Origin: Hydrogenivirga caldilitoris
GTDB taxonomy: Bacteria; Aquificota; Aquificia; Aquificales; Aquificaceae
Length of the DNA: 64,000 nt
Assembly: GCF_003664005.1 (NCBI RefSeq)
Contig: NZ_RCCJ01000001.1
Location: forward strand, 124,001 to 188,000
Reading direction: 5' to 3'
This document shows, piece after piece, positions 6,718 through 9,618 of this stretch. The notes under the pieces are model-generated. The model ran no database searches. It had not been told where the DNA came from and worked only from the letters and a program-made list of their open reading frames with translations. How positions within the stretch are numbered: the stretch's first letter is position 1; each line of letters starts with the position of its first letter. Made by a program: the position numbers and the translations under genes.

Positions 6718-6842
6718 ATGATAAAGAAAACCATGAAAGGTAAAAGGTGCTACGTAACCTTTGAGCTTGAGCGAGAAGGAGTAAGGAAAGCTTACCTGGT
6801 GGGAGATTGGAACAACTGGAAGCCGGAGCCTATGAGGTTCAA
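6718..6842 (+). pseudogene. Truncated glycogen-binding (CBM48/AMPK-type) protein
   Basis: A good ribosome binding site (GGGAGGTGAG) and ATG open a frame encoding KAYLVGDWNNWKPEPMRF, the signature of the carbohydrate-binding module family 48/AMPK glycogen-binding domain. Homology stops near 6842. From there the DNA is the antisense of a glycogen phosphorylase gene, so the frame continues to 6918 only by chance. Small stand-alone proteins of this kind are about 100 aa. The simplest reading is a gene cut by a deletion shared with its convergent neighbour. Confidence 0.7.
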
Positions 6843-7223
6843 GGCAAGGTCAGAACTCTCCTTCAGAATGTCCCCTGCGAGAAATCCGAGTCCCCCGGCG
6901 TATATAAGGAGTGTGTGATGTAGTCCGTACTCTGGTGAGAGAAAGATTATGGGCTTTTCAAACCGTTTTGATAGTTCGGAGCATCTCTTCATGTAAAACT
7001 TGAAGTAAGAGTAAACGTAGTTGTAGTGTTTTAAAAAGTCTTCGCTCTTTAATCTTTCACCAAGCAGATTTGTCCTTTGCAATAACTCTATAGGGTTCTG
7101 ATTTGTATCCTTCCATAAGATAGGGTCAATACTCCTAAAAAGTTCTCTAGCCGGTGGGTTCCATGTCCACCAGAGGTTGTAAGCGAGTTCCCACAAACCT
7201 TTCTTTACTTCTTCCGGGTTCAT
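6836..7223 (-). pseudogene. glgP: Alpha-glucan (glycogen) phosphorylase, N-terminal fragment
   Basis: About 130 residues remain of a family usually near 600-850 aa. The N-terminal DUF3417 region is clear (ELAYNLWWTWNPPARELF, then DPILW), as is the start of the phosphorylase fold (SPEYGLHHTLLIYAGGLGFLAGDILKE split over 7-6.84 kb). Homology ends at the junction with the CBM48 fragment around 6836-6845; no active site, PLP lysine or C-terminal domain is present. It cannot be a working phosphorylase. TAAAAT and a GGTGAG lie before the ATG. Confidence 0.75.
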
Positions 7224-7317: not shown

Positions 7318-8376
7318 ATGGCGGTTAAGGACATAATGGACGCACTTCGTGGAGAAACCTTAGAAGATATCGGTCTGAAAGAGAACCTGGCACAGCTGGT
7401 GAAAGATATAAAGCTAATAGGCAGCGAGCTGGATGTCCTCCTGTACACACCTAAGAAAGGTCTTGAAGATATACTTAGGGCTAAGGTTCAGAATGCCCTG
7501 TCTGATGTGCCTGATGTGAAGAAGGTAAACGTTAAGTTCACAGAAACACCTCCCCAGCAGGCTCAGCAGGGTGCTCAGATACCCACCGGGCAACCGGCCT
7601 TTACAAAGAGAAAGGTTCCCGGTGTCAAGCATCTTATAGCTGTGGGTAGTGGTAAGGGTGGTGTCGGTAAATCAACTGTTGCCGCCAACTTAGCTCTTGC
7701 CCTAGCTAAACTCGGCTATAGAGTGGGGCTGTTGGACGCAGACATATACGGACCAAGCGTTCCAACTCTTTTAGGTTTGAAAGGTACAAGAGCTACTGTA
7801 AATGAAAGGAACAGGATAGTTCCTGCGGAAAAATTCGGGATAAAGGTACTCTCCATAGGTTTCATGCTCCCTTCAGAGGACACACCTGTTATATGGAGAG
7901 GACCTATGCTTATGAAGGCGCTGACCCAGTTCCTCTTTGATGTTGACTGGGGAGAGCTTGATTACCTTATCCTTGACCTTCCGCCCGGCACTGGGGACGT
8001 TCAGCTTACCCTTGCCCAGAACGTAGACATATCAGGTGCAGTTGTCGTTACCACACCCCAGGACGTAGCCCTCGCGGATGTGAAGAAAGCCACATCCATG
8101 TTTAAGGAGGTTCAGATTCCTGTCCTAGGTGTTATAGAGAACATGGCTTACTTTATCTGCCCCAGTGACAGTCAGAAGTACTACATATTCGGTAAGGGCA
8201 AAACCGCAGAGTTCGCTTCCGCTTACGGGCTTAAAATACTTGGCTCTATCCCCATAGACCCGGAGGTTTCGGAGCGCTCTGATAAAGGTGAGCCGATAGT
8301 CGTGGAAAACCCTGAGTCTGAAGTGGCTAAGGCTTTTTATGGTATAGCAAGGATAGTAACCCAAGAATTAAGTTAA
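7318..8376 (+). CDS. mrp: Mrp/Nbp35-family Fe-S carrier ATPase
   Basis: 352 aa. An N-terminal MIP18/DUF59 domain (residues 1-80) is followed by a low-complexity QQAQQGAQ linker and the deviant Walker A GSGKGGVGKS (110-119). These P-loop proteins carry and transfer [4Fe-4S] clusters as dimers. The usual bridging CxxC is here CPSD (Cys281, Asp284), so one cysteine ligand per subunit is missing. Strong AAAGGAGGAAG before the ATG. The next gene is an IscS homologue 12 nt downstream, consistent with a cluster-assembly pair. Confidence 0.9.
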   Translation: MAVKDIMDALRGETLEDIGLKENLAQLVKDIKLIGSELDVLLYTPKKGLEDILRAKVQNALSDVPDVKKVNVKFTETPPQQAQQGAQIPTGQPAFTKRKVPGVKHLIAVGSGKGGVGKSTVAANLALALAKLGYRVGLLDADIYGPSVPTLLGLKGTRATVNERNRIVPAEKFGIKVLSIGFMLPSEDTPVIWRGPMLMKALTQFLFDVDWGELDYLILDLPPGTGDVQLTLAQNVDISGAVVVTTPQDVALADVKKATSMFKEVQIPVLGVIENMAYFICPSDSQKYYIFGKGKTAEFASAYGLKILGSIPIDPEVSERSDKGEPIVVENPESEVAKAFYGIARIVTQELS

Positions 8377-8388
8377 GGAGGTAGGAGT

Positions 8389-9618
8389 ATGTTTGTAAAG
8401 AAAGCAGGGCAAAGAGTCGTTTATTTAGACCATATCGCTACCACGCCTGTTGCTGAGGAAGTGCTGCAGGCTATGCTCCCTTACTTCAGGGAGAAGTTTG
8501 GAAATCCAACTTCCCTTCACAGCTTTGGTCAGGAGGCAAAGAAGGCTATAAACGAAGCCAGAGAGAAGATAGCAACCCTTATAAACGCCAACACCCCGGA
8601 AGAGATAGTCTTTACCTCAGGAGGTATAGAGGCGAACAACCTCGCTATAAAGGGTATAGCGAGCGCTTACAAGAAGCGCGGTAATCACATAGTTACCACA
8701 GAGATAGAGCATCATTCAATTCTTCATCCCTGTAAGAGCCTTGAGAGGGAAGGCTGGGAAGTGACCTACCTTAAACCGGACAGGTACGGTCTTCTGCATC
8801 CAGACCAGGTAAGAGAAGCTGTTAGGGAAGACACGGTTCTTGTCTCTATAGGACACTCCAACAGGGAGATAGGTACCATTCAGAACATAAAGGAGCTCGT
8901 TCAGGCTGCCAAGGAGAAAAATCCAAAGGTTATCTTCCATACGGATGCTGCCCCAACCCTTGGACACTACCCCGTTGACCTGAAAGATTGGGGCGTAGAC
9001 GCAGCCTCCTTCACAGCTCACCTCATGTACGGACCGAAGGGTGTGGGTGCATTGTGGACGAGGAAGGGTGTTAAGGTAAGACCCCTTCTGGAGGGTGGCA
9101 CTCAGGAAAGAGGTGTAAGGGCTGGAACTGAGAATGTCCCTGGTATAGTTGGTTTTGGTGCCGCAGCAGAGCTTACCATGAAAGAGCTTGAAGACAGGAT
9201 GACCAGGCTTGCCAATTACAGGGATAGGTTTAGAAAGGCTATTGAAGAGAAGCTGGAGTACATTGAGTTCACTGGACATCCGACCCAGAGGCTTCCCCAT
9301 CACATATCCCTTATAGTTCATTTCGTGGAAGGAGAGGCTATGCTTCTCAGGTGTGATCTCATGGGTATAGAGACCGCTTCAGGTTCAGCCTGTGTCTCTT
9401 TAGCTCTCAAGCAGTCCCATGTTCTCTTCGCTATAGGGGTCCCCAAGGAGGTTTCTAACGGCTCAGTTGTCTTCAGTTTCGGAAGGGAAAACACGGAAGA
9501 GGATGTGGAATACGCCTCTGAGGAATTTCCAAAGATAGTCAATTGGCTCAGGAGTCTCTCACCCTTCAATCCGGAAAACTGGGAGAAGTATGTGAAATCT
9601 AAGGAAGGAGCCCATTAA
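8389..9618 (+). CDS. NifS/IscS-like protein lacking the PLP lysine
   Basis: 409 aa, aligning end to end with IscS. The catalytic, sulfur-carrying cysteine is kept (SGSACVS, Cys335), as are the stacking His (Cys desulfurase EH box, His108), Asp186 and the substrate arginine in FGREN. The Schiff-base lysine of the S-x-H-K motif is Leu212 (TAHLMYGPKG). Other cofactor residues also changed: Thr76 of E. coli IscS is Ile80, Asn155 is Arg159, Gln183 is Pro189. It is thus unlikely to bind PLP normally. Archaeoglobus IscS also lacks this lysine. AAGGAGGTAG precedes the ATG; mrp is 12 nt upstream. Confidence 0.88.
   Translation: MFVKKAGQRVVYLDHIATTPVAEEVLQAMLPYFREKFGNPTSLHSFGQEAKKAINEAREKIATLINANTPEEIVFTSGGIEANNLAIKGIASAYKKRGNHIVTTEIEHHSILHPCKSLEREGWEVTYLKPDRYGLLHPDQVREAVREDTVLVSIGHSNREIGTIQNIKELVQAAKEKNPKVIFHTDAAPTLGHYPVDLKDWGVDAASFTAHLMYGPKGVGALWTRKGVKVRPLLEGGTQERGVRAGTENVPGIVGFGAAAELTMKELEDRMTRLANYRDRFRKAIEEKLEYIEFTGHPTQRLPHHISLIVHFVEGEAMLLRCDLMGIETASGSACVSLALKQSHVLFAIGVPKEVSNGSVVFSFGRENTEEDVEYASEEFPKIVNWLRSLSPFNPENWEKYVKSKEGAH

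Follow-up and report, generated by a model that had tools for sequence, protein, structure and literature searches.

The window, a 64,000-nucleotide stretch of the genome of the thermophilic bacterium Hydrogenivirga caldilitoris, encodes an IscS homologue whose cofactor site has been lost, directly downstream of a gene for an Fe-S carrier ATPase. The features relevant to this pair are the following:

7318-8376, forward strand: gene for an Mrp/ApbC/NUBPL-type Fe-S carrier ATPase, ending 12 bp upstream of the IscS homologue (PF10609, 5.8e-106)
8389-9618, forward strand: coding sequence (409 aa) of the IscS homologue without a PLP site (Aminotran_5, 7.8e-83; 87% identity to the Aquifex aeolicus protein of PDB 9WFY)
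8434-8436, forward strand: Ile16 (Ile or Leu in all covering orthologues; replaced by Ala in mutant 9WER of A. aeolicus)
8626-8628, forward strand: Ile80, Thr76 in E. coli IscS (Ile in 69/69 covered orthologues)
8863-8865, forward strand: Arg159, Asn155 in E. coli IscS (Arg in 71/71 covered orthologues)
8953-8955, forward strand: Pro189, Gln183 in E. coli IscS (Pro in 57 orthologues, Ala in 14)
9022-9024, forward strand: Leu212, encoded by CTC, where E. coli IscS has its Schiff-base lysine, Lys206 (Leu, Tyr or Phe in 72/72 distinct orthologues)
9391-9393, forward strand: Cys335 of the mobile loop, retained (Cys in 72/72 orthologues)
9469-9471, forward strand: Val361, at the position of the arginine that binds the substrate carboxylate, Arg356 in E. 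coli (Val in 72/72)
9547-9594, forward strand: C-terminal tail LRSLSPFNPENWEKYV, where IscS has the helix that docks IscU (predicted helix 395-406; docking role, PMC2854127)

Re-deriving the open reading frame from the window sequence returned the coordinates and the 409-aa translation given by the first-pass annotation. The protein belongs to the class-V aminotransferase family of fold type I (PF00266, 7.8e-83) and passes the IscS subfamily model NF002806 (335.8 bits, cut-off 304), while falling short of the curated equivalogs for both IscS (TIGR02006; 392 bits, cut-off 643) and NifS (TIGR03402; 479 bits, cut-off 531). Its upstream neighbour matches the ApbC model at 1.4e-95, under that model's cut-off.

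Five cofactor and substrate residues have been lost, with His108, Asp186 and Cys335 still in place. The Schiff-base lysine that marks a PLP-dependent cysteine desulfurase of the IscS/NifS type is replaced by Leu212, within SFTAHLMYGPKG, whose CTC codon lies three base changes away from either lysine codon, AAA or AAG. Translation and orthologue alignment bear out the remaining replacements listed at first pass (Ile80, Arg159 and Pro189 for the Thr, Asn and Gln contacts of PLP) as well as the three retained residues. The first-pass annotation erred on one point, namely that the substrate arginine was kept: the arginine of the SIRFS motif (Arg356 in E. coli IscS) aligns with Val361, so that the erosion of the site is more complete than first described.

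How widespread is this state? A relative of the protein at E <= 1e-40 is present in 101 of the 112 searchable genomes of the order Aquificales, and further orthologues were found in a wider genome collection. Residue counts refer to 72 distinct sequences from two families, some of which do not cover positions 16, 80, 159 or 189. Position 212 is Leu in 51 of them, Tyr in 20 and Phe in one; lysine, whose occurrence in relatives had been named at first pass as counter-evidence, is found in none of the 72. Relatives from other phyla and lysine-bearing paralogues have Thr, Asn, Gln, Lys and Arg at the five sites, the sole exception being a Ser at position 80 in L078. The PLP and substrate site has thus been dismantled at five positions, and the loss is fixed across two bacterial families. 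As the first-pass annotation held, no single sequencing error can account for it: the identical residues recur in independent genomes, which rules such an error out.

The loss of catalytic residues is what one would also expect of a decaying, functionless pseudogene. However, dN/dS amounts to 0.013-0.020 against three close relatives (with dS near saturation), the reading frame is intact in the orthologues examined, the loop cysteine is invariant and the operon is conserved. These observations refute decay, to which we assign next to no probability; selection maintains the protein. Its predicted fold, loop cysteine and IscU-docking tail are all kept under strong purifying selection. An AlphaFold2 model (pLDDT 90.6) superimposes on Archaeoglobus fulgidus IscS with an rmsd of 1.0-1.5 A. 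The tail, with the pattern LR.xSPF.xENW, is conserved among the lysine-less proteins and absent from lysine-bearing paralogues. Binding is abolished when E. coli IscS loses residues 376-404 (PMC2854127).

The lost PLP site as such is not new. Genome G001, which we take to be that of A. aeolicus strain VF5, encodes an orthologue 87% identical to the window protein, from another genus and with the same residues lost. The sequence of PDB entry 9WFY (wild type) is 100% identical to this gene, and six further entries (9WFE, 9WFB, 9WF8, 9WEW, 9WER and 9WEP) hold mutants of the same protein. The mutations accumulate from R159N plus L212K (9WFE) through V361R (9WFB), P189Q (9WF8) and I80T (9WEW) to I16A (9WER). 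Such stepwise restoration implies that at least one group has already recognised the lost site. No paper on these entries or on Aquifex IscS was found in the literature searched. The 9W entries are probably recent, since foldseek did not list them in a copy of the PDB that ends on 8 April 2026. What the present analysis adds is the phylogenetic extent of the loss, its operon setting, the missing desulfurases and a paralogue in nif clusters.

The precedent invoked at first pass, A. fulgidus IscS, is real. As described in PMC7585200 (citing Marinoni 2012 and Pagnier 2014), that protein has no lysine and no activity, and its cysteine is a ligand of a [2Fe-2S] cluster on IscU; at the lysine position PDB 4EB5 has D and 4R5F has K. 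The A. fulgidus protein (4EB5, 4EB7, 4HVK; D199K mutant 4R5F) and the window protein share the loss of both the lysine and the substrate arginine, the loop cysteine and, as predicted for the latter, the fold. As judged by sequence, the window protein also has the IscU-docking tail looked for in a protein of this type, and each has an IscU with which the A. fulgidus protein works and the window protein is proposed to work. In contrast, A. fulgidus IscS keeps the equivalents of Thr76 and Asn155 (SGATEANN, HANNEIGT), where the window protein has Ile and Arg. In our tree, A. fulgidus IscS stands apart from the Aquificales proteins and groups with lysine-bearing sequences at 86/100; a single shared origin is therefore not supported, and two state changes suffice. 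The catalytic lysine has also been reported missing from IscS1 of Methanosarcina acetivorans, which was proposed to act like its A. fulgidus counterpart (PMC7585200). This likeness is one of description, and M. acetivorans additionally has an active IscS2 and SufBC. E. coli IscS and human NFS1 (~40% identity) resemble the window protein in the loop cysteine, the IscU-docking C-terminal region and the fold (predicted for the window protein), but are active PLP enzymes with all five site residues.

Could the protein nonetheless still be a desulfurase, holding PLP non-covalently or employing another lysine? His108, Asp186 and the overall (predicted) fold remain, and the PDB entries name the molecule a cysteine desulfurase. 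Yet Lys, the substrate Arg and the Thr, Asn and Gln contacts have all been replaced, the replacements are conserved, and the depositors restored exactly these residues; A. fulgidus IscS, with fewer changes, is already inactive according to PMC7585200. Given that Arg, Thr, Asn and Gln are gone too, hidden use of PLP through another lysine is unlikely, and we regard retained desulfurase activity as a whole as highly improbable.

The gene neighbourhood points to Fe-S cluster assembly. An Mrp/ApbC-type gene lies immediately upstream of the lysine-less iscS in 57 of 59 non-redundant loci, and in one of the two others a contig end cuts inside the gene. In 11 of the 20 loci examined from the second family, the order is mrp, lysine-less iscS and iscU, then a PP-loop (ThiI/MnmA-like) gene, with iscU following iscS directly in nine of these 11 and after ~2 kb in the other two. 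These 11 loci provide the genetic link to IscU that, together with a lost lysine and a kept loop cysteine, characterises the A. fulgidus type. In the window's own genome, iscU is unlinked (G000:C1:1197347-1197814), but there too the PP-loop gene follows it. Across the order, IscU was found in 98 of 112 genomes, and in the Aquificales proteins all three cluster cysteines are conserved, as are the Asp, the His and the N-terminal Tyr. These proteins also carry an extra conserved cysteine (L160:7348-7815, forward strand; L080-L099), reading GQCGNPxCGD compared with GxVGxPxCGD in the four non-Aquificales IscU proteins seen, which is possibly an additional cluster ligand that co-evolved with the dead IscS. 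The PP-loop ATPase (L160:7817-8863, forward strand), linked to iscU in both families, combines ThiI/MnmA-like HUP and NFACT-R-type domains and may be a tRNA-thiolation enzyme that this system supplies as well.

SufB/D was found in none of the 69 searched genomes of the two families with lysine-less IscS, as opposed to 23 of 23 in three neighbouring families, among whose listed genomes there was no relative of the window protein at E <= 1e-20. Across the phylum, the SUF system (SufB/D core) and the lysine-less IscS look mutually exclusive, the former being seen in families f3-f5 alone and the latter, together with IscU, in f1 and f2 alone. One genome, G033 (99% complete), has IscU, with no IscS homologue of either kind detected, which could reflect an assembly gap or further reduction.

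A second, lysine-bearing desulfurase, suggested at first pass as something to look for, does exist in the window's genome: a single NifS-like protein (L002; motif SAHKFHAPKG) near fdhE and without an IscU-docking tail. The arrangement recurs in A. aeolicus, whose only lysine-bearing NifS lies inside a formate dehydrogenase operon (L119:1-6113; the corresponding region of the window's genome, again with its only copy, is L002:1468-4051). As both paralogues lack the LSP tail, they more likely sulfurate formate dehydrogenase. In 10 of 12 single-contig genomes checked with PF00266, no lysine-bearing class-V desulfurase was found (G028, G029, G032, G035, G036, G038, G050, G052, G057 and G099). These ten otherwise contain the lysine-less protein, an alanine-glyoxylate-aminotransferase-like protein (inspected in eight) and, in some, a dead homologue linked to nif genes, their remaining PF00266 matches being weak and to unrelated aminotransferases.

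What, then, does the protein do? We consider it likely that the protein descends from a cysteine desulfurase, has given up PLP binding and now serves as a partner of the scaffold IscU. In the simplest model, this partner would be structural and ligand-donating, with sulfide as the sulfur source: the lysine-less IscS would dock on IscU, the Cys335 loop would reach the IscU assembly site and supply a ligand (or hold a persulfide), the sulfur of the cluster would derive from free sulfide instead of cysteine, and Mrp would carry clusters onward as a downstream carrier. The first-pass annotation had proposed just such a PLP-free scaffold or sulfide-dependent assembly partner, and the genomic record (gene order, a canonical IscU, no SUF, and many complete relatives in which a lysine-bearing class-V desulfurase is missing) is consistent with it. 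Sulfide-fed assembly has a parallel in E. coli without IscS, which builds clusters anaerobically from H2S and requires IscU to do so (PMC13015791).

Alternatively, the protein may act as a PLP-free sulfur carrier, Cys335 being loaded with persulfide by a rhodanese, a TusA-like protein or a lysine-bearing NifS and passing it to IscU. This is the main competitor of the sulfide-fed model. Cys335 is invariant, the window's genome encodes three rhodanese-domain proteins (four domain matches) that could load it, and some genomes have a lysine-bearing NifS, which in the window's genome (L002) could feed IscU. Against such a relay, many complete genomes keep the lysine-less IscS without any lysine-bearing NifS, the latter sits beside fdhE wherever its neighbours were examined in Aquificaceae, and the conserved surroundings of the lysine-less iscS contain no recognisable rhodanese. 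We hence deem the relay unlikely, if far less so than retained catalysis, and favour the sulfide-fed, ligand-donating partner.

The sulfur of Fe-S clusters is commonly assumed to come from cysteine desulfurase in all organisms. A bacterial lineage would here have converted its desulfurase into a component without enzymatic activity and retained it, which suggests that the role of IscS as a scaffold partner is separable from its catalytic role. Whether early life in sulfidic settings assembled its clusters straight from sulfide could thereby become testable in culturable bacteria.

Five Aquificaceae genomes (G028, presumably H. thermophilus, G027, G030, G035 and G050) encode a second, possibly new lysine-less NifS-like protein, flanked by nifV on one side and an aldehyde-ferredoxin-oxidoreductase-like gene on the other:

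L118:4644-5837, reverse strand: nif-linked lysine-less NifS-like protein
L114:2157-3353, forward strand: nif-linked lysine-less NifS-like protein
L164:8124-9212, reverse strand: nif-linked lysine-less NifS-like protein
L165:7530-8660, reverse strand: nif-linked lysine-less NifS-like protein
L166:1678-2781, reverse strand: nif-linked lysine-less NifS-like protein

No active NifS was seen in these five nif-cluster stretches; nifB and nifA each lie nearby in four of five, and a model match confirms nifH in G050. Four of the five copies have eroded the motif further (e.g., to DGPSLLGPQ, and to SPC or TPC around the loop cysteine); the copy in G030 still has Ile80, Arg159 and Tyr212. In the tree, they group with the lysine-less Aquificales clade, although their branches are long and the grouping is weakly supported (67/92). 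It is conceivable, though we would put the chance at somewhat below even, that many Aquificaceae assemble all of their Fe-S clusters, and the diazotrophs among them their nitrogenase clusters, without a cysteine desulfurase, the housekeeping IscS and the nif-linked homologue both serving as PLP-less partners and all cluster sulfur coming from sulfide. With two dead homologues and no lysine-bearing class-V desulfurase found, H. thermophilus would offer a sharp test case for nitrogenase.

Elsewhere in the window, a 143-aa open reading frame on the reverse strand (6792-7223) matches alpha-glucan phosphorylase (best model, 816 positions). Since the match is confined to the N-terminal DUF3417 part, it looks like the remnant of a truncated gene.
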